Shown piece after piece: positions 16,025-63,562 of a stretch of DNA of 64,000 bases (positions within the stretch are counted from its first letter, which is position 1; the number at the start of each line of letters is the position of its first letter). Position numbers and translations under genes: made by a program. Origin of the DNA: Patiria pectinifera (lineage: Eukaryota > Echinodermata > Asteroidea > Valvatida > Asterinidae); contig CM057149.1 of NCBI GenBank assembly GCA_029964075.1, forward strand, positions 22,458,197-22,522,196, in the 5' to 3' direction. The notes below the pieces were generated by a model that did no database searches, had not been told where the DNA came from, and saw nothing but the letters and a program-made list of their open reading frames with translations.

Positions 16025-16309
16025 GTGAGTTTTAAATTTACGCAGATAGAAAGTTAGGTAGGAATCCTAGTAGGATTGTAAATAATAATATAAAACTAAA
16101 AAGTATATCGTTTGCGTTGATTTTCCATCTTTTTTTTGCATTTGAAGCTAAAATTGTCGAATATACAACAACGATAATCGTGACAATTCGACAATGGTTG
16201 TTAAAGAGGAAAACGTTGTCGAATTCTAGCTAGCTACTTATTCCTCCATGGTCGAATTCATACTTTTCCCGAACTGTTATAAATGTGAACATGGTCACGA
16301 TGGTGAATA

Positions 16310-17210
16310 CAGGTCAGCTCGTACGTGAGCCAACTCGTACGCGACCAACTCGTACGCAGGACAACTCGTACACGGACAAACTCGTACGCGGGCCAACTCG
16401 TACGCGTGATAACTCGTACGCGGACCTACTCGTACGCCAGCCAACTCGTACGCGTGAGTATAGACTAGACTGAAACCGTTGGTTCGGGTGTGTAGGAAAT
16501 TAGGGTCGGTCAGTTGTCCGGCACATTCTTTTTTTCTTAAGTTAAGGGGATAATTTTGTGTTACTGAGTGGTCCCAATTAGTTCAGTTTTAAATCAGCTT
16601 TTTTTGCTCATAACAAAAAATTATGATTTGTTTTCCCGGACCACTCGCACACTGTCGATGTCTGATCCTGGCTCACACCGTACGCTATACGACAAGATAT
16701 TGCCACGTAGTGAGAATTTAAATCGTATAATGTCCGCTGCATTTCCAACAATACATTGCTATAGTGGCCCCGCGCTATATGTAAATCAAATCGTTGTACG
16801 TCTTGACAAATTCTCCACACTAGCTGCGTGGTTGGAAGCGCATGCCGCAGCATTGCACTACACATCGGTCGCAAAAAATGGATCATGTATTTTTGTGTCA
16901 TTGAAACTTTTGAACTTTTATGGAATTTTAACTGTTGAAAATACATATGGCTACAATCATAGTTATTCAGTCATACAATCGTACTGTGTACTGTGATAAA
17001 TCGATAACTTTGGCGTGTGTTTTGGGGTAAACTTTTGGCGATCGTAAACATCGTTCAATTTAAATTTGCTTATTTCGGTCCGCGTACGAGTTGTCTTGCG
17101 TACGAGTTGGCTGGCGTACGAGTTGTCTCGCGTACGAGTTGACCAATCCGCATACGAGTTGTCTCGCGTACGAGTTGGTTCGCGTACGAGTTGACCTGTT
17201 TCCATGATGG
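16310..17210. mobile_element. Foldback-like element, arms of CAACTCGTACGCG repeats
   Basis: The left arm (16313-16470) has about eleven units of CAACTCGTACGCG with 13-17 nt spacing. The right arm (17080-17200) has about eight units of the complement CGCGTACGAGTTG. Outer flanks ATGGTGAATACAGGTCAGCTCG and its counterpart ACGAGTTGACCTGTTTCCAT also pair. The 600-nt middle has no coding similarity. Confidence 0.8.
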
Positions 17211-17519
17211 TTCGACTTGTAACTGTTAATTGAGAATATGATGAAGAAAACAGTGGCGTCAGGTTGGAATATTCTTTGACAAAAATTTCTGTAGCTCACC
17301 TAAGTGATTTTCATCACAATTAATCATTCATGCAATGTTCATGAGCTGAGACCGCGACCTTTGCCCTTCAAAAATGGAGGAAACGTGACGGCGACCCCAT
17401 GCCGTGTGAAATTGCACGCACCGCTCTTGGCCTTGGGAAGACCGAGGCTGAGACTGAGACTTGAGATAGTGAGACTGATTCACTGAATCGATCATGAAAG
17501 ATTCTTCTTGACTTCTTAC

Positions 17520-30924: not shown

Positions 30925-31935
30925 ATATAAGAGAGAAGTTTACTCGGCCTGCGAGACGATGTTTGCTCATGAAAGGATCCGAGACCGCGGGCTCACGCGG
31001 CGCCAAAATCACTCCACGTCCGTGGAAAAATGCGGAGGGTGTCTTCCGCCGGGTCGGACGCTTCGGGTCGTCCTTATTTTCCCGTACGGACCGGCGATCC
31101 GTTTCGTCGATTTTTCGTGACTGCATTTTGCACAGGAATTTGCCGTCGTGTGCGCTCTCACGTTGACTGCCTGGCCGCCCCCTGTGCTGGCTTTTCTGCG
31201 TGTCTAGACTGTGCGAGGTCAGCGAGGTCAACGTAGGGGTTTCGTTTACGTGTTCTACTCGGCCGTACTGCAAAAGCGTTCACCAAACGTTAGTATGGGG
31301 TGACCTTGGCAAAATATTTTTTCTCCATGGTGCGTGGCCACCAAGTGTTCCAATCTTTCCTGTGCTTTGCTTGCCGCCCCTGCGCCGAGTGCAACGAATA
31401 CTCAGAAGGACTACACATTAGTATGCCTTGCGCGGTCTGACCAATCGAAAGTCTACACTGCGTGGTACTTCCCGGCTATGCGTAAAACCGTCGATGGCAA
31501 CGCGTACTGCAGCCTGCTCCACACCCTGGAAACGAGGTTGGGTCTACGGTTCTCGGTATTGCACATTGCACAAGCATGTGACGTCGCGTGATACAGTGCT
31601 GTTGCTTCCATAATGTGTTTACAGCTCCATGCTTCCACCACCAAGGCTAGGCTAAGCGTTGTGAGTTCGCTGCCCGCCACGTATAATATTCAGTGTCGCG
31701 TTATAATTTGGGGGGCCTGTTTGGGATCATCGAAGGATCGATGCATTGCTTCAAATGTCGCGATCTTAAACGCAGTCACGAAAAACAATCGACGAAAAAG
31801 TGTCCAACCCGGCGGAAGACACCCTCCACATTTTCCCACGGACTTGGAGCCATTTTGGCGTCGCGGGAGAACGCGGTCTCGGATCCTTTCAGGAGCAAAC
31901 GTTTCTCGGAGGCCGAGTAAAACTTGCTGTTATAT
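30925..31935. mobile_element. About 1-kb element with long (about 140-bp) terminal inverted repeats
   Basis: The left arm (about 30935-31080) has GTTTACTCGGCC, GCTCATGAAAGGATCCGAG, GACCGCGG, CCGTGGAAAAATG and GGGTGTCTTCCGCCGGGT. The right arm (about 31790-31925) has the complements ACCCGGCGGAAGACACCC, CATTTTCCCACGG and CTCGGATCCTTTCAGGAGC, then GGCCGAGTAAAAC. The middle is GC-richer than neighbouring DNA and has no recognisable transposase. Confidence 0.8.
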
Positions 31936-46678: not shown

Positions 46679-49600
46679 TCAGAGTTTAGTGTCGATCCTG
46701 GAAAGGTCCACGTGCCCAACACAAGGCAAATCCCCATCCCCAATGCCTCCTGCAGATCCAGAATGAGTGCTTTGTCCTGATACAGCTGCCAAAGCACAAC
46801 TGTTTGTGGCGGACTGTTGTTGGACATCCGTCGTGTGTCGGATGAAACGGCAACGGCAAGAACAGGTTATCTTCATCCACTGCTGCCACCACAGCACCCT
46901 CACGTTGTCCTTCAGGAGGAACGTCAAACCGACGAGGGCGCCTTGAAGGGAGTTGACAAAGACGGCTAGGTACCAGACGATGACGACGTCGATCAAGTTG
47001 GCAGCAAGGAAGAGAGACCAAGTCGCTCCAGTAACCACTATCAGCTGTATGAAGAGGTTCAGAAGATCGATAATATTTGGACATGTACAGTCGCTATGTG
47101 GCAACAAACACAATTGACCGATTTAATGTTGCCTTTTCCGGATGTTAGCCGGTGTGCACTGTCGCCACAACAATATCGTTTTTTCAAAGGGAAAATGTTA
47201 ATACTTTCAACTCGATTCAACTAATTTCACAGGGAAGTGCCTCTTCCAATGAAAATGTTGGCAAATGAGCGACCTTAACAACTGGTTTGATAATTCAATT
47301 TTTTTCACAGGCGAATCTATTGTGAACAAGAATGTGTCACCTCGCGTGCGATCCAACTTTTTGGGGGAGGGGGTGTGATTTGGCACAAAGCAAAATATTC
47401 GTTCCCGATTTAATTTCATAATTAGTCGGTGACCTTGTTGAAATGTCTTACCTTAATGCAGAGTTGAACGTAGGTCTTGCCATCAGTTGCCATTCTTGAA
47501 GCAGCTAGCCTTCGGTGGTTTGCAGTCACTGTATAGATCATGATGACAAGAAACAAACAGTTGACAAGAAGAAGAACAGACAATGGGATGCCAAACACCA
47601 ACAAAGCATGTGTAGAGTCAACAATCCAGCACTGACTGCCACCATACTCAAGACCAAAAGACGAGTACTCACTGCTCAACTTCGACACCAGGAAACAGAC
47701 AGCCACAAAGATGGCGGGCAAGCCCCAAGCCACGACGCAGAGCTTTATGACTTTGTTTCCATCACTGCCTTCTTGGAGGAAAGGAGGCCTCATCGATCGC
47801 ATGCTGTACGCTAAATTACTTGCAAAAACACTCATCCACATAAATACAGCAAGCCAGGAAAAATGCAACACCACTGCCCGTGTCGTGCACAACCAGGAAA
47901 CTGATGTTGAACCAGCCACTAATACTACCTGGGAAAGGATAAAGGCAACAATGAGATGCATCAGGATTTTACCGGGTATGTTTCGCAAAACTGGGAATCT
48001 CAAGTAGGTTATAAGCGTGATGACCAACACAAAAATCGAGCACACGCTGCCTGCAAAACTGAACTCGGAGAGGGTTGCAAGCCACGCTGGGTAAGTAACC
48101 GTTTCTGCCCCTGACAGAAAGTTACATATACGAACGGTACCGTCCGGTAACTGCCACACATCACTTGCATTGAAGGAGCTCCCTGAGGCCTTGTGAACAA
48201 AGATGAAGTCTGTGCCAGCACCCGAGATTAGAAAATCACTTCGGTCAAATGTGAGAACAGAGCAGCCACTCTCAATGAATGGGTCGCATAAAGTCAAGTA
48301 CACGTTCCTCGACCGAGTTTCATTTGTTAACTCATACTTCGTAATATGAACGAACCCACTGTCCTCATATATAAAGCCGCTGATGTTGACATAGAAAGCA
48401 CTATCAGCGTACTCAATCTCGCTTACTTCCACATTTTGCTGGTTGAGCCCCTCACAGACTAATCCTTTGGACGCATTGATGCCAGCACTCGATGCCACCA
48501 GAAGCAGTGATGCTGTTGGACTACATGCCAACACCGATTGCGTGGTGAAGAACTGGTCCAAGGTGTCTTGGATGTGTGCTACTACGGATAAATCAACATA
48601 GATGGTGGCCTGGTCAGACAAATTACCCAGTAGGTTGTGGCTCGAAGCATTCTCAATACCTGGTAAGGTTACAAGTTGTTGCCAACAGTCAGTTGATGTT
48701 TTTTGGGTGGTGACCTGGTCCTTTGATTCCACACACTGACCCATCTGCAACACTCTACCAACAGGGCAGGTCAGGTTTCTGCACACGCCAATGAAGGGAT
48801 CGTATTGTTGCCAAAGACTGCATTCACCAATTTTCTCCAAGACCGCGGGTAAATTACCCAAATAGCGACTATCCTCGGTATAAACCGATTGGGTAGTGAA
48901 ATCAAATAGGAGCTTAAATGAAACGGTAGCAAAATTCAATCCTAGTTTCGGGTAGTCACAAATTAAACGATTGAGTCCTATTCGCTGTAAAGATTCGCAG
49001 TATGCGCAGTAGACATTTTTGTAGGCCATGATATCATCCTTAAGAGGCCTGTCAATGAACAGAAGGGACGTATGGTTGCCACAAAGTGCAATTTGGGTTT
49101 CTGTGGCATTGGTGGTTTCCGGGCAACTGTCGACGAAATTGTTAAAGCAGTGGTGTGGATGAGTAAGCATGGATGTAGGGGGAGTTGCCTCAATGCCTGT
49201 GCAGGCATCCAAATTGGGCTTGCCACCGTGGTAGACGGAGACGATCTCTCCCTCCGCAGGCTCGCAGTCCCACAGTCTGATGTTCCAGGCTACCGGATCA
49301 GTGACGTGGTGACAGATAGCGCAATAGACGTTCTTGAAGACAATATCATCTGGTCCATTAACCAAAAGCGTCAGGAATCTCTGAAATCGGGCCAATGTCT
49401 CATTTTCGCAGTTTTGTCTTATGTCGTCCATGGGCCAATCTAATGGACACTGTCCAACTGCCAGATAGCTGACCTTATTGTCTGAATCGTAAGGGGAAAC
49501 ACAGGCCATATGAGGCGAGAAATCATAGCGGTTTGCCCAGGGATCACTGTCGTTGGCGCAGTGGTCCAAGTAGTCAATGCAACAGTCACCGTACACGACA

Positions 49601-52600
49601 CAATTGGTGTCACATTGACAGTTTAACCTTTTCGCAGGTCGACCGTAGAGGATATAATCATCGCCACAGTCCGGTGCGCAGTGAGTCTTTTCACGTGCAC
49701 AGAAATCCTCGATAGCCGTCGAGGCCACTGGAGAATAATGTAAGGTGATGATAGTTCAGTCGGAAAAGGGGGGTATCGTGCACCCTCGGAAATCAATTTC
49801 TAATCAACGTTTCTAGGTCAGAAAAAATGCGTAGAAAACGATTTGCTATGTTAAAAAAATGCAAAAAATGTCCCACGTATTGTTTTTATGCAAATTAGTG
49901 CCGCCATTACCGAAACATCTATTTTTTAACTATATCTCAGCCAATATTGCAGATAACTGAACGAACTAGGTGTCTAAACCCATGTTTTCAAGGTCAGAGA
50001 TCACAATAAAACTATTCTGGAAGTGACCACATGTGTCTGTGGCATAAGAATATGCAAATTAGTGCCGCTAATACCGGAAAATCATGTTTTTGGCATATCT
50101 CGGCCAATATGGCACATAACTACACCAGTAAGGTGTCTAAACCCATGTTTGAGGGACAAGTATAATTAGAAGACCATTCACGAAGTAACCATGTGTGTCT
50201 TTGGCATGAAAATGTGTAAATTATAAAGTGTCGGTTTGTCAGATATTTGATTTTTAGTCAATATCTCGGCCAATATTGCACTTAACTACACAAGTAAGGT
50301 GTCTAAACCCATGTTTTGAGGGTCAGGTATCATTAGAAAACCATTCACGAAGTAACTATGTGTGTCTTTGGCATGAAAATATGTAAATTCTAAATTGCCG
50401 GTTTATCAAAAAAATGATTTTCAGCCAAATTATATTCAATTTCAGCCAATATTACAGTTTATTTTGAATATGATGGCTTAAATTAAACTTTGATCACTAT
50501 TGCTTATCAAAAACCCTTCTGTCAACATTAGCTGCAATATTGGCCGAGATATTGGCTAAAAATCAAATTTCTGATAAATCGACACTTTAGAATTTACATA
50601 TTTACCTGCCAAGGACACACATAGTTACTTCGTGAATGGTCTTCTTATGATACCTGACCCTCAAAACATGGGTTTAAACACCTTACTTGTGTAGTTATGT
50701 GCAATATTGGCCGAGATATTGGCTAAAAATCAAATATCTGATAAACCTACACTTTATAATTTACATATTTCCATGCCAAAGACACACATAGTTACTTCGT
50801 GAATGGTCTTCTAATGATACTTGTCCCTCAAAACATGGGTTTAGACACCTTACTGGTGTAGTTATGTGCCATATTGGCCGAGATATGCCAAAAACATGAT
50901 TTTCCGGTATAGGCGGCACTAATTTGCATATTCCTATGCCACAGACACATGTGGTCACTTCCAGAATAGTTTTATTGTGATCTCTGACCTTGAAAACATG
51001 GGTTTAGACACCTAGTTCGTTCAGTTATCTGCAATATTGGCTGAGATATAATTAAAAATAGATTTTTCGGTAATGGCGGCACTAATTTGCATAAAAACAA
51101 TACGTGGGACATTTTTTGAATTTTTTTAACATAGCAAATCGTTTTCTACGCATTTTTTTCTGACCTAGAAAAGTTGATTAGAAATTGATTTCCGAGGGTG
51201 CACGATACCCCCCTTTTCCGAATAAACTATGAAGGTTTAATGGAATTGCAATAAATTTTCACTGTGACCTGAATGCACCCCACACACCCCTGCCGACGCC
51301 CGTGTTTTTTAAATGTGCATTCAATTGACAGCAATATGAATTCGCACCTAATTTTTTTTTGGGGGGGGATGCTTTTCCGCTATGGGTATATGAACCGACT
51401 CGTCTCGAGTCACTGCGAGCAAATGACTCGACTCGACTCGAGTCCTTAATCAGAAGACTCGACTCAAGCAAAGGCTAATAAGACTCGAGTCCCCAAAACA
51501 TAAACGAAACTTTCCAAAACAAATATTTGCAATGACTTACGGTTCAAAACGTAGGCCTATGTTCACGTCACTTTTCGAATACAGTACGCTACAGCGGCTG
51601 TTTGTCGTGTACCAACATACATGTCAAAGACTCCCACCTTGTAGTTCTGGAACGCATAAAATACTATCCAGGAACCGGACTTAAAACACATTTTCCAATT
51701 CGCGGTTTCATCAGTGGCTTTGGGCGACTTCTTATTAATCTCTTGGATTCAAACGCAGGCAAAATTAAGCCCTCCTTTTAAAAACGTAATATATACATGC
51801 CCACTTTTAAATAATATAATCAGAAACAGTTTTGTATAACGCAGTTTGGTTTTGATGCTGTCAGCGATCGACGAAACAATTCTTGACCCGAAGTCAAACC
51901 AGATAGCCTGACTGATAGTGATACAAATGACTTTCGCTTGTCTTTATTTTGTGACTCGAATCGTCTCGAGCTCAATATGTGACTCGACTCGACTCAAATC
52001 GACTCGACCACACACTGTGACTCGACTCGACCTTCTGGACCTAATGACTCAATCGACTCGAGTCTCTTCTTTAAAAGGACTCGACCCGACTCGAGTCACA
52101 AAAAATAATCAGTAACTCATTACAACTTTGTCCCAGGCGTAGACCAGTGTAAGTCAAGAATGATAGTCGGCGAGGGACTAATTAAGTTAGTGAGTCATTG
52201 AAGTCAGATACAAAGAGGACACTAGGCGTGCTCTCTCTCTGGCACCAGTAAACATCTGTTTTCAAATTTGAGCGTCTGCAGCCCTAACAAACAAATAGGA
52301 CTCATATTTTGGTTTGCCTTTGCACTTGTAATGCACAAAAAGAGCCGCCCGTATTATTGTTTGTGTTTGTCGTCTCTGGCAAAAGTGCAAAACTACTTAT
52401 TTCCAAAGAGAGTAAATTCACCTTACTCAAGTAAATACTTACTCCATTCAAATGAGAACAAGACGAACTAGAGTAAAATTTGTTCACTGAAATTGCTAAA
52501 TCGAGTTTTCACTTCTGTTTTCACTCGAGTTTCCTCTAAAGTATATCTTGTTCAAAATGTTGCAATCCCCAAAAGAGAGCTATTTTCACTCTAAATTGTC

Positions 52601-52820
52601 TAGTCCCTAATTGTGCTCCCTGCAGGAAATTATTAGTAGGATAACGTTTTGCATTACTAGAAATTCGTGGTAAAATTCGTCAGCATGGGGACAGCGACGT
52701 TTTGAGAAACGATAAAGTCTTACCAGGTTGAACGAAGCAGCCAAGGTGGTAAAACGCAGCAGATAAGCCTATTAAGAACAATAATTGCAACACTGCACTT
52801 CTGGAACCTGGTCGAGCCAT
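46679..52820 (-). CDS. Somatomedin-B domain, seven-transmembrane receptor (secretin/Methuselah-like), three exons
   Basis: Exons 52820-52724, 49727-47452 and 47044-46679 join in phase (1, then 0) to give 912 aa. Exon 1 is a signal peptide (MARPGSRSAVLQ, then a hydrophobic core) ending CCTG/GTAAGA. Exon 2 opens with a somatomedin-B domain (about residues 42-89: CQCDTNC, GDCCIDY). A Cys-rich ectodomain follows with two KNVYCAxC motifs near residues 163 and 265 and many N-glycosylation sequons. LPDGTVRIC near residue 558 precedes helix 1 (about 582). Helices 1-5 are in exon 2. Exon 3 starts within helix 6 (LCIK/LIVVTGATWSLFL) and carries helix 7 and a short tail. The helices look secretin/adhesion class, but no GAIN or GPS cleavage site is evident, as in Methuselah receptors. 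Exon 1 is assigned from phase fit and signal peptide, less certain than the others. An upstream in-frame ATG at 52871 is possible; its 39-nt stretch duplicates the start region. AATAAA occurs 17 nt past the stop. Confidence 0.88.
49761..51220. mobile_element. 1.46-kb palindromic foldback element of about 166-bp repeats, receptor intron 1
   Basis: The sequence from 49761 (CGGAAAAGGGGGGTATCG) is mirrored back to 51220 with few mismatches, centred near 50490; each arm is about 720 nt. Each arm holds about four units marked by TATCTCGGCCAATATTGC and GGTGTCTAAACCCATGTTTT near 49931, 50097, 50262 and 50438. The right arm has the complementary units. The units differ from one another more than the mirrored partners do. 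There is no reading frame of note. The left end lies 33 nt from the exon 2 acceptor (49728-49729). Confidence 0.92.
51395..52110. mobile_element. Foldback-like element with GACTCGACTCGAGTC arrays at both ends
   Basis: Arrays of ACTCGACTCGA and GACTCGAGTC lie at 51397-51500 and 51953-52106 around about 450 nt of unrelated sequence. The units are partly palindromic, so arm orientation is not decisive. It lies in receptor intron 1. Confidence 0.6.
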
Positions 52821-53491
52821 GGTCTGCACCACAGCACTCTTGGAACTTGGTCGAGCTATTGTCAGCATCATCAGTGTATTACATAAGCAGTGTGTTACGT
52901 ATTACCTAACTACATAAGGAACAAACAGTGCTTTCACTGTATGAAGCAATAGCGTTGTGGCTGAACGTCAGTTCTCCGTGGCGTATTTCAAGAAGCTCTA
53001 GTTTTTATATTTCCTTTGAACGTGACTCGTCTGCATCTTCAGTCTTGAAAGTCCTGTTCGTGAGAATAAGTCCTTGGTCAGCAGAAACGATTAGGAACCT
53101 GTCGCCCGCAATTATTAGTTGATATCTTCGCCTGCTTCGATACCTCCCTCGTGGCTTCAGCTGTACCACCCGGGAATTTTCTATCAAATAACTGGTGATT
53201 AAAAGAATGGACAATAATCTTAGCCCCATGATGTCCAGTATGCAAGATCATCATTACCTAACGAATTTGATTTTTTTTCCTCATTATTTTGACAAATATA
53301 GAACGTTTGAGCCTGAAGTGATACATCTCAACACCGAACGGTAAGATTGCCATGGAGCGGACTGCAAGTTTGGCGGTTTAGTTGCCAATATTATTACCCC
53401 TGCCAACACTATGTTTTCATTGTGTAACCGGGGCGAGTGCGAATGAGATGGATTGCTACAATTGTCCACTCTCCGCAAAAACGAGCGGTTA

Positions 53492-57425: not shown

Positions 57426-57985
57426 TGTCATCAGATTAACTATTGCGCGTGATTTGCTTGTATTCAAAGGAACAATTAATATTTTTCTCCAGTATGTTTT
57501 GTCTAGCGAGACTAACCCTTTTACAGACCCAATTCGACACCGATGTTGCTCCGTATGAGTTTTTCCCACAACAGCGAATAGAATTTGCAAGAAAAAATAC
57601 GTTCGGCTACCATGCTGTACGTGCCCCTCTTATACGCATGCGCGCATAACATTTTATATAATTATACACAAAATCAGTCTTTAGGTGACACCCCGTTTTT
57701 GTAATTATACGATCGGTTTCAATGGGAGACTTTTGAGATGTTGGTGGCAGCAAATCCACCGGTCCTTTTCAATTGTTTACATAATGTTTAAGCTAAAGCG
57801 CGCATGTTCAATATGACGCAAACAATGGAAAAATAGGACCGGTATGTTTGCCGCCACCAACGTCTGAAAAGTCTCCCATTGATTGCTTTTCAGTCGTACT
57901 TGTCACAACGCAAGGATGTATGCGTGACTCTATTGTGTAGCTCTGTAGCCGGTCGAACTCAATGTAAATCGGCCCTGAGAAAAAA
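57425..57985 (+). repeat. Duplicated copy of the SRCR gene's 5' region
   Basis: It matches 59490-59846 in order: TCAGATTAACTATTGCGCG, CTTATACGCATGCGCGCATA, GTAATTATACGATCGGTTT, then CTTGTCACAACG and CAATGTAAATCGGCCCTG. Similarity ends just before the SRCR start codon, so no signal-peptide exon is kept here. A 160-bp MITE interrupts it. Confidence 0.8.
57720..57881. mobile_element. 160-bp MITE inside the duplicated SRCR 5' region
   Basis: CAATGGGAGACTTTTGAGA, TTGGTGGCAGCAAA and CCGGTCCTTTTCAATTGTTT are mirrored by AAACAATGGAAAAATAGGAC, TTTGCCGCCACCAA and TCTGAAAAGTCTCCCATTG. It is absent from the paralogue at 59735. Confidence 0.85.
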
Positions 57986-59855: not shown

Positions 59856-62171
59856 ATGGAGTCGGCACATCTCGTGTATGGGTTGGCGGTGTCGATGCTT
59901 GGATGTTTCTGTTTCGGGGCGGTTTCTGCAGGTATGTTTGTGTATTCCAAATATAAAACAATCCGGGTTGCTTAAATTGTTAAGCTTGTGAATAAATTTG
60001 TCTACCTGCTGGAAATTGAAAGTTGACAAGAGGCACAACGAAAGAAACGAAAGAAACGTTTGGTCCAACTCGACCCAAAATTCCATCAGTGGCATTATTA
60101 AAGTCTGCCGCCCCGTTTTACCATCTGCTTAACATTCGGGGGAAGAAAACAAAGATTGGCTTATTTTGAATGGAACAATATTTATTAAATCCTTTGAATG
60201 CCCTCGGAAAATGAGCGCCCTCGTTGCAAATTGGATCCAATCTATGCAACTGAAACTGGTACTAGCTCTAAAAGCCTGTTGGCACCAAGGGCGTCAATCA
60301 TCGCCTCTCAATAGTGGGGGTGTGGGGGGATGGGGGTGTTGGTGGTACAAACTTGTGTATCCTGATGCTAACTAATTCGAGTGCGAAACCTAAACGGCGT
60401 GGGGTTCTGGGCCCGCCAGGATTTTTTTCTAGAGGGGGCAAAGCACATTTCCCCCGAAATCCCTGTACTTTTCCAGCATATTCTCAATGTATTTTTCGAA
60501 GGGGCAGGGACATTCCCCCCAACCCATTAAATTAACAGCACTATGACTTCGCGCCTCTTTTTCTTTCTCCCCTTTTTTTCTCCATTTGTTGGTGCTTTCT
60601 GGGGGGGGGGGGGGGCAAGCGCCCTCCTTGCCTCCCCCCCCCCCGAGGAATTTTCTGACTACTGGCAAGGTTTTAGCAAAACGTCCTCCTTGAAACATCA
60701 TTTTGGAGTTTGGAGTCATTGAATAAGCTATTCTGAGTTACAGAATTAAATGTAGGTTTTCCCAGATATTTTATCGCTGGTATCACACGAATTCCTTATA
60801 TCGATATTTTAATTTCGTTCCCGAACATCGCCAAGTTCAATTCTAAATTTGAATTTCAGAAAGCTGTTGTCGTTACATTTCGTTTCTGATGACTTAAAAC
60901 GTATACGATAGGTTTTCCCCGTTATTTTAACACTTGCACCACACAAATTCCCTGTATCGATACTCTAATTTCGTCCCCGAACATCGCCAAGCTCAATTCT
61001 CAATTTGAATTTCGAAATGCCACCACTAGATTTCATTTAAGGTTCAGTATAATTCAATTGTAATTTGATTAATGCGCACATTTCTTCAAATAAGTCCAAA
61101 GATTGGGCACATTTTTCTAATCGTAACGTTTTAAGTCACCAGAAACGAAATGTAATGACAACAACATTAAAAAGAAAGGCAAAAAACGAATTGGCTTTTT
61201 CAATTCAACGCCGGATTGCTACACGAGACGAATTTCACAAATTACGGACGAATCGGTATGCTCAAAATTTGAATTATACTGAATTTTAAATGAAATCTAG
61301 TGGTGGCTTTCTGAAAATCAAATTGAGAACTGAGCTTGGCGATGTTCGGGGACGAAATTAAAGTATCGATATAGGGAATTCGTGCCATACAAATGTTAAA
61401 ATGACCGGAAAAACCTACACTAATAGTTTACGCTTCAAATCTTGCTTACTGTTTTTTGCTCTATTGTGCTTCTGCTTCTGTAATAACGAAGAGCAGTTAG
61501 TTTTGGACAGCCTGGGTTTTGCTAAACAAGATAACGAATGGATTAATAATAGTACAAGCATGTAATGTGACATGTATTTTGTGCACCGTGTTGTGTTCCG
61601 GATCCACGACTGAGCACCGTACCCATGCACTTCTAAAAAATACTACACCAGCAAGAGTCCTGCAACACGTTCTTCTCAGAACCGCACAACCCACAAAGAG
61701 ATATCATTCACATGGTGTTCCCGCAAACGTCCCATCCATTGATCATGCAAAATAATGATCACCATGCAAACCTATAAGCCCCATTAAATAAGCCTTGTTC
61801 GTTATTTTATTTTTTATTTTTTACTTTAGCTGATATGATGGGGCTGCGTCTTGCAGACGGGCGTTACCCAAACGAAGGTCGTGTAGAGGTCCTCCCACCA
61901 GGAGAAGACTCGTGGGGAACCTACTGCTCCAACGAGAACCCACTCCTTATAGGCCGCGTGGCGTGCCGTCAACTCGGCTTCCCCGCCCTCCTGTCGGCAA
62001 CTGCCAGTGGGGAGTTTGGCAAGGCCACCGGTCCCATCTGGTTCCAGCTGATGATATGTGGCGAACAGCTGCAGGAGATGATGACTCTAGATGATTGTTT
62101 GAAGTTAGGATGGTTCCCGTATTACGAGGTGTGCGATCACAGGTTCGATGTAAGCCTCACCTGCTTCACAG
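59856..62171 (+). CDS. Secreted SRCR-domain protein, first two exons (partial, runs off right)
   Basis: Exon 1 (59856-59931) starts at a strong CACCATGG and encodes 25 residues of signal peptide (MESAHLVYGLAVSML, then FGAVSA), ending at GCAG/GTATGT in phase 1. Exon 2 (61830-62171, 342 nt) follows a pyrimidine-rich acceptor (TTTTACTTTAG) and ends ACAG/GTAAAT, also phase 1. This symmetrical phase is typical of shuffled SRCR exons. It encodes one SRCR domain: LRLADG, GRVEV, SWGTYC, RVACRQLGF, FGKATGPIW, then Cys at IC, DDC, EVC and LTC. That is six cysteines, the group A set. SRCR proteins are secreted or membrane scavenger and immune-type receptors, heavily expanded in echinoderms and amphioxus. 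Later exons must lie beyond the right edge, so domain number and any membrane anchor are unknown. Intron 1 contains an inverted-repeat element (60748-61425). Upstream DNA is a paralogue of 57425-57985. Confidence 0.87.
60748..61425. mobile_element. Inverted-repeat element in SRCR intron 1
   Basis: GTAGGTTTTCCC...CGAACATCGCCAAG at the left is mirrored by CTTGGCGATGTTCGGGGACG...GGAAAAACCTAC at the right. The left arm contains the block twice (near 60755-60890 and 60910-61030). CATTTCGTTTCTGATGACTT and AAGTCACCAGAAACGAAATG form an inner stem. Confidence 0.8.
61640..61750 (+). repeat. Dispersed repeat, copy of 63915-64000
   Basis: GTTCTTCTCAGAACCGC, then AGAGATATCATTCACATGG and TTCCCGCAAACGTCCCATCC, matches GGTTCTTTTCAGAACCATT, GCATATGG and TTTCCGCAAACCTTCCATCC at the right edge. 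Confidence 0.65.
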
Positions 62172-62391: not shown

Positions 62392-62720
62392 ATTATCTCA
62401 TTGAAGGCCATTCGTTGCAAAAATGATAAGACAAAAATCTGGGACTGACAAATGTTTCCAAAATTGTTTGGAAATACTTAAAATGACTCTCCATAGACGT
62501 TGTACACAGCGCGGAGGTGGCGTCAGGTTGCAACATTGGTTCCCGGCGTGTAGTATCTCATTGAAGGCCATTCGTTGCAAAAATGATGATAAGACATGAA
62601 TGTGGGACTGACAAATGTTTCCAAAATTGTTAGGAAATACTTAAAATGACTCTCCATAGACGTTGTACACAGCGCGGAAGTGGCGTCAGGTTGCAACATT
62701 GGTTCCCGGCGTGTTTGGTT
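62392..62720. repeat. Tandem duplication, about 160-bp unit
   Basis: Two copies, each starting ATCTCATTGAAGGCCATTCG and ending GGTTGCAACATTGGTTCCC then GGCGTG, with only a few differences including a 3-nt insertion. Confidence 0.9.
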
Positions 62721-62904
62721 ACCGACACACCCGTACAAGTCATTTTGTGTGTATATGCTCCTTACGACAAAATGGATATTTCAGACGACGATTTCTTTCT
62801 AACTAAAAGTAGATTTTTAAGTCACGGCGGAAAATCTGACAGTGAAGATGCATTGGAAATTTTCGGAAAACAAATTTCACGCAGACGGTCCTATTCATGC
62901 TCAT

Positions 62905-63540
62905 TAGGGCCCTGTCACACTTCTGCGTATCCTAATTCCTTATGAGTTGCGCATTGACTTTTTTTCATACGCAGTCGTACGAACAATACGCACCTCATAT
63001 GCATCTCTATCGTTTTATGTAAGTTTTATGTACGCAGGCATACGCATGGTACGGCCCAGTACACTGGATAGTTTTGGGCATGCACAAAACTACGCTGCGT
63101 ACGCTGTTACGCAGGTCATAAGTTATAAATACGCAGCGCATCGGTCCCGCATCGGTCGAGCGCGGTACGAGTACGCTATGTGTTCGTGAGGGATAAGCCG
63201 TTCATACGCGGCAATACGCTGACCTCCTATATTGGACGTATACATAGCGACGTATTGCACGAATTAGTACCGCTCGTCCTGCGAGCGGGCAGCGCATTGT
63301 ACTTATTCGTAACTTATGAGAAACGCACAGATGGCGAACTTGCGCACTGCATACGTAACTCATACGCATCTCATACGCAGTGGATGCGCTGAATTCGTTA
63401 CTTGTTCGCTAGATGTGCGTCGCACATATGTCAAAGTAATCAAACAATTTCGACGTTTTTGATCGTACGGCTGCGTATTGAAAATTGTTGATAAGGAACT
63501 CATAAGGAATTGGGATACGCAAAAGTGTGACAGGGGCTTC
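62905..63540. mobile_element. TIR element with TACGCA/TGCGTA-rich interior
   Basis: GCCCTGTCACACTTCTGCGT, ATCCTAATTCC and TTATGAGTT at the left are mirrored by AACTCATAAGGAATTGGG, ATACGCAAAAGTGTGACAGG and GGC at the right. The interior repeats ATACGCA and TACGAAC-type words on both strands. No transposase. Confidence 0.75.
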
Positions 63541-63562
63541 ATGAAGAACACTGATTGTCCGA

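Follow-up and report, generated by a model that had tools for sequence, protein, structure and literature searches.

A probable TA-targeting foldback transposon of Patiria pectinifera with its spacer in both orientations relative to its ends

The palindrome and the receptor gene beside it

The window, that is, the whole 64,000-nt stretch of Patiria pectinifera DNA that was analysed (contig CM057149.1), contains a large palindrome close to a receptor gene (Table 1). The minus-strand open frame of this gene (49755-47422, 777 aa) is intact and encodes Somatomedin_B and 7tm_2 (secretin-type seven-helix) domains, and the palindromic element lies upstream of the inferred exon 2, 26 nt from its first base (49727, minus strand). 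An earlier note on this DNA had placed the palindrome in intron 1, at 33 nt from the exon 2 acceptor. The proximity was confirmed, with the distance to the first exon base corrected to 26 nt, and the location in intron 1 holds only with the inferred exon 1 at 52820-52724, the donor of which was scored with a splice-donor matrix. With this exon, the candidate intron would measure 2996 nt and the transposon would make up about half of it. A 39-bp tandem duplication (window 52786-52867) overlaps the candidate exon 1, so that part of the predicted signal peptide is repeated.

Table 1. Features of the palindromic element and of the neighbouring receptor gene (window positions)
Feature	Position	Strand	Remarks
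Whole foldback transposon copy	49754..51227		1474 nt; GTTCAGTCGG end left, GTTTATTCGG end right
TA, left end (target duplication)	49752..49753
TA, right end (target duplication)	51228..51229
Left outer domain	49754..49886	+	133 nt; 97% identity to right outer domain
Unit L1	49887..50049	+	163 nt
Unit L2	50050..50215	+	166 nt
Unit L3	50216..50382	+	167 nt
Partial unit L4	50383..50467	+
Central spacer	50468..50521		Both orientations relative to ends among other copies
Partial unit R4	50522..50597	-
Unit R3	50598..50764	-	167 nt
Unit R2	50765..50931	-	167 nt
Unit R1	50932..51094	-	163 nt
Right outer domain	51095..51227	-
Phase-switch interval, left arm (arm positions 327-528)	50081..50282		Right-arm counterpart ~50699-50900
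Receptor exon 2 ORF portion	47422..49727	-	Somatomedin_B, 7tm_2; inferred acceptor AG 49728-49729
Candidate exon 1	52724..52820	-	Signal-peptide-like ORF, phase-1 donor; inferred

As the earlier note had described, this is a large near-perfect palindrome of approximately 166-bp repeats, whose arms (49751-50467 and 50522-51230) preserve the same unit order and are 95.0% identical, with 35 substitutions in 704 aligned bases (span 49754-51227). From the outside inwards, each arm is composed of an outer domain of 133 nt, units of 163, 166-167 and 167 nt, and a partial fourth unit. The element has a GC content of 35.5%, and its longest stop-to-stop frame encodes 80 aa. Chance origin of the palindrome is excluded, since 100 shuffled windows gave 0.00 expected matches for both the unit core (6 observed) and the terminal 24-mer (2 observed). 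The second arm is unlikely to be an assembly artefact, the circumstance that the earlier note named as fatal to its reading, considering the 35 substitutions between the arms, their differing flanks and the recurrence of the two-armed element elsewhere.

It had also been claimed that the arms mirror each other better than the units match one another, which is borne out by the identities of position-matched units (L1-R1 98%, L2-R2 96%, L3-R3 94%, L4-R4 84%), against only 78-89% between non-matching full units. A tree built from the six full units joined L1 with R1 and L3 with R3, each with 100% support; the L2+R2 pair was unsupported (44-49%), yet six informative sites favour it. Judged from these unit comparisons, the array most likely existed before the mirror duplication. 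The outer domain showed no clear similarity to the units (in the best of 12 comparisons, 9 of 200 shuffles scored as high), and its candidacy as the source of the units is thus left without clear support.

No second copy of the element was found elsewhere in the window, and Rfam (gathering scores) and tRNA scans across the window returned nothing. Scans of viral contigs with the element sequence gave no matches, and a lone exact 20-mer match in a Pedobacter contig, the sole one in its scan, was taken as chance. The blocks GCCAATAT and TAAACCCATG are identical across all six full units, and units L1, L2, R1 and R2 each contain the octamer ATGCAAAT, a POU-factor site motif.

Dispersed copies, TA flanks and classification

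Searches of the host genome assembly (613.5 Mb, 1020 contigs) revealed a dispersed family. At least 115 matches were obtained with an 810-base query (best 40 of 244 first-look candidates scored), at least 89 with the spacer (best 40 of 121 candidates scored) and at least 40 with the outer domain (best 40 of 252 candidates scored); these counts are minimum estimates, and the copies that were scored are the ones closest to the window copy. Loci were fetched in sets of 39, 18 (three re-fetched wider) and 8 (three re-fetched wider). In the first set, both outer ends were present in 24 of the 39 loci, and 23 of the resulting 25 two-ended copies, window copy included, had TA on both sides. Altogether, 55 loci including the window copy were analysed, and 29 of them possess both ends and the spacer, one pair among these (L021/L022) being a duplicated locus with common flanks. 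TA was found on both sides in 23 of these 29 copies and was missing on one or both sides in six (L026, L028, L049, L054, L057 and L061); both ends were exact in only 17 of the 29. For the window copy alone, a TA or an AT target fits equally well, and no uninterrupted empty counterpart of its site was found in the assembly (both of the two candidates were scored).

Taken together, the TA flanks identify a TA-target foldback transposon, and the feature is very probably one copy of a non-autonomous, non-coding element of this kind, the core of which would flip between the arms in source copies. The window copy would have inserted into the receptor gene at 26 nt before the inferred exon 2, moved by cut and paste through a transposase encoded elsewhere. 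No transposase was linked to the family: no longer element with the same outer domain was detected among eight loci read over approximately 9.9 kb (five new and three re-fetched wider), in all of which the outer domain is followed by the same unit array. The dispersed copies rule out a unique local palindrome or a satellite array. A local inverted duplication made in the receptor intron, with no transposon involved, would account for the symmetry and the palindromic TA just as well when these are taken alone, but it is refuted by the presence of same-ended copies at many unrelated sites and retains practically no probability.

Copies of the family differ in structure. Three unit anchors were identified in each arm in 13 of the 29 two-ended copies, and in one arm, with fewer in the other, in 14; one of the remaining copies carries two in each arm and the other (L061) four and three. 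Since point changes can erase anchors, arm length is a better measure than anchor count, and 11 of the 29 copies, including L017 and L049 with scrambled arms, have unequal arms (one <650 nt, the other >=680 nt), as deletions inside one palindrome arm would give. Additionally, the single-arm copies L072, L073 and L074 break off at almost the same point of the inner arm (positions 668-672), past which the sequence is unrelated, and are possibly one-ended or hairpin-derived products.

Structurally, long inverted arms with tandem repeats around a middle segment, together with dispersed TA/TA-flanked copies, place the element in the foldback class. The Tc1-mariner superfamily, Bari included, targets TA, and the TA target duplication fits Tc1/mariner-type movement as far as flanking sequence can indicate. 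The inverted repeats of Bari measure about 250 bp. Helitrons and Helentrons with satellite units have neither terminal inverted repeats nor a target duplication, which sets them apart from an element with inverted ends and a TA duplication. In the excerpts of PMC4877112, the table rows for Bari are consistent with that repeat length, and long inverted repeats in some members, as well as non-autonomous relatives, represent further likenesses; the difference is that Bari has no 166-bp array. The element resembles MITEs in being non-coding and AT-rich, but not in size, since MITEs are usually shorter than 600 bp (excerpt of PMC4877112) and it measures 1474 bp.

The closest systems in anatomy are Tetris and Galileo, although the element's membership in either is excluded by their target duplications of 7-10 bp; its flanks have only TA in common, which also departs from the 7-10 bp of Mutator- and P-type elements. 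According to the excerpt of PMC4079207, Tetris, a foldback transposon of Drosophila virilis with target duplications of 8-10 bp, likewise has long inverted arms, each comprising an outer domain, a tandem array of ~220-bp units and an inner domain, is non-coding, and had no transposase source found. However, the number of its units is variable and the array grows into satellite DNA, whereas a fourth anchor occurs here only in L061, and its outer domain and unit have a common stretch, in contrast to the absence of clear similarity observed here (same excerpt). Galileo, of the P superfamily, also has long inverted arms, with internal tandem repeats in some subfamilies, and one copy carries two internal repeats per arm with an arm identity of 95.2%; its target duplications are of 7-8 bp (excerpts of PMC2775673, PMC3573991 and PMC4168063). 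Recombination is documented for Galileo in the same excerpts, but it takes place between copies, yielding chromosomal inversions and chimeras, whereas here it apparently takes place within one element and flips the core. Tm1, a Mutator/foldback element of root-knot nematodes, has composite arms with tandem repeats as well, but with 9-bp target duplications and repeats of 13-15 bp (excerpt of PMC3169594).

Spacer orientation and the history of the arms

The two ends of the element can be told apart at the fourth base, which is C at one end and T at the other in 22 of the 29 copies; in the others, one end was unreadable (four copies) or the ends were T/G (two) or C/C (L039). The spacer is asymmetric too: in 23 of 25 two-ended copies, it scored 63-132 one way and no more than 27 the other, the exceptions being L045 and L046, which have no spacer. 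When the end-to-spacer orientation was called in the 29 two-ended copies, 11 were CT, 11 were TC and seven were not callable. With copies that have one readable end added, 36 of 48 spacer loci were callable, 18 as CT and 18 as TC, and merging four callable pairs with common flanks (L015/L043, L021/L022, L024/L038 and L064/L065) left 15 CT and 17 TC of 32. If the assembly is correct, the family therefore contains both arrangements of the spacer with respect to the ends. This is a new finding, with an earlier description possible in the literature on Drosophila FB or sea-urchin TU elements: no report of core or loop inversion in such transposons was found in the titles and abstract openings of the open-licence literature, and a literature text search with sequence strings of the element returned unrelated subjects only.

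The position at which the orientation changes can be approximated from differences between the two arms. In the 22 fully callable copies, with the class defined by the end base (arm position 3), the markers at arm positions 172 (6/6 heterozygous copies), 176 (6/6), 315 (10/11, the exception being L011) and 327 (11/11) follow the ends. Between positions 528 and 706, by contrast with this end linkage, 16 of 18 scored columns follow the spacer fully, the incomplete ones being 646 (4/5) and 659 (7/8). Mixed phase was observed at columns 477-511, and column 177 agreed with the spacer in 4/5 and with the ends in 3/5 copies. At 15 of the 528-706 columns, which were picked after the marker-linkage result was known, the spacer phase was contradicted in none of the 22 copies. 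Since markers are linked to the ends up to 327 and to the spacer from 528, the exchange took place most simply between these positions. The core would be flipped if, in source copies, the two arms of a single element crossed over with each other; such recombination within an element leaves one end with C and the other with T and explains the phase switch, whereas C/C or T/T ends would be expected from exchange between elements. With distinguishable ends and an asymmetric spacer, a well-preserved copy reveals if its core has been flipped, as well as the rough position of the arm exchange.

An assembler may invert a short unique spacer that is flanked by near-identical inverted arms, and the arms of this family are long and alike, so that the two orientations could be assembly errors. 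This is very unlikely, considering that the elements are only about 1.5 kb long, that outer and inner markers switch phase in a single interval with no inner contradiction at the tallied columns, that copies with strongly unequal arms are also TC, such as L033 (384/698) and L034 (148/699), and that duplicated loci agree on orientation.

Regarding the number of inversions, spacer type AT was found in 8 CT and 13 TC loci and type CC in 10 CT and 4 TC loci, one TC locus being mixed; with duplicates merged, the counts are 7 CT and 12 TC for AT and 8 CT and 4 TC for CC. Neither of the two main spacer types is confined to one orientation, so that more than one event is likely: given a single origin of each type, two or more inversions, or one inversion plus other recombination, would be needed. 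In a weakly supported tree of the 14 best-covered of 22 copies, with many weak branches, orientation was scattered, requiring 4 changes, not clearly below the shuffled mean of 4.95, and 637 of 2000 label shuffles gave values as low. A single ancient flip could have produced two isomers that were later mixed by recombination between different elements, which agrees with the confinement of the phase switch to one 200-base interval. However, both main spacer types are found both ways, and exchange between elements should often leave C/C or T/T ends, while C/C was seen in one copy of 29 (L039) and C/T in 22, which renders this scenario rather unlikely.

To our knowledge, the source of the near-identical long arms of foldback elements is not settled. 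Founder arms, taken as the majority letters read in phase across the 22 copies, show 5 differences in 480 outer positions versus 19 in 228 inner ones (Fisher 2e-06), the split at 480 having been chosen post hoc with the data already seen. Of the 36 arm differences of the window copy, 20 are at positions where the founder arms already differed (this alignment counts 36 differences and the pairwise arm alignment 35). The inward decay gradient of the window copy (p = 5e-05 with all 704 columns, 0.054 with the first 640 columns only and 0.39 with the first 470) was accordingly rejected as a local trait, being instead a feature of the founder.

In 20 copies (the 22 callable ones minus L017 and L049), 124 of 128 private outer-arm variants were present on one arm and 4 on both, which indicates that, once inserted, each arm has mostly decayed on its own; the window copy alone, a tiny sample, has 2 on one arm and 1 on both. 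The near-identity of the outer arms is therefore a property of the source elements and not of each site, and maintenance by conversion after insertion was mostly rejected. Of the variants also present in other copies, 251 were confined to one arm and 32 occurred on both, which makes some sharing of variants in source lineages possible. The proposal that the structure arose as a whole inverted duplication consequently stands for the founder of the transposon family and not for the window locus, and its companion, that it was maintained as a whole, finds no support in the family after insertion. Two ideas that are often merged are thereby separated: arm renewal in source copies and arm maintenance at each site.

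The well-matched outer zone ends close to the exchange interval, which would be consistent with the outer arms being renewed through the same recombination between arms. A tentative but plausible model is that of a self-flipping palindrome, in which repeated crossing-over between the arms of one element, with conversion, renews the outer ~480 bases and inverts the core, producing isomers at about 1:1 that transpose equally. Such crossing-over or conversion perhaps occurs during repair after excision and, after insertion, the two arms would mostly decay separately. If the model is true, a self-flipping family would represent the mobile-element counterpart of the flip-flop at large inverted repeats.

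Predicted hairpin and other repeats of the window

The earlier note had proposed that the pre-mRNA could fold into a very long duplex that may affect use of the acceptor. The duplex holds as a predicted fold (-1149.2 kcal/mol and 683 pairs for the element alone), which is expected of any such palindrome, and a transcript of the element should form a hairpin of approximately 700 bp. With flanks included, the predicted long stem begins at the element ends and leaves the 14 adjoining acceptor-side nucleotides unpaired, and the last intron bases sit in another small predicted helix. YTNAY is a loose branch-point motif. It would lie 27 nt from the exon if the element were removed; with the element, it occurs at -14 and next at -66, with none in between.

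An effect of the hairpin on local splicing can be conceived in two ways: the stem folds out and returns the older branch-point region to the acceptor, or the duplex is edited or diced. The start of the predicted stem at the element ends, the unpaired acceptor-side nucleotides and the YTNAY positions agree with the former. For yeast introns, a stem that forms between the branch point and the acceptor is described as reducing the effective distance between the two (excerpt of PMC12350175), and a stem here could restore the older spacing in the same manner. On the other hand, any insertion of this dispersed element would look alike, the candidate branch-point A is predicted to be paired at the stem base, with the last intron bases in the other helix, and the intact 777-aa frame with exon 2 shows only that the insertion is tolerated. 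An effect on splicing is thus improbable at this locus; the family nevertheless offers natural insertions for studying a 700-bp intronic hairpin near an acceptor.

The window carries other repeats. A second foldback-like element is found at 16297-17211, where ~620 bp are enclosed by inverted arrays of a 16-bp repeat (CTCGTACGCGGGCCAA with variants), with a GATGGT direct repeat at 16299-16304 and 17206-17211. Further inverted-repeat pairs resembling short transposons lie at 30961-31900, 57665-57939, 60751-61441 and 62901-63544, and tandem arrays occupy 1370-2186 (146-bp units, 5.5 copies) and 62394-62714 (163-bp units, 2 copies).
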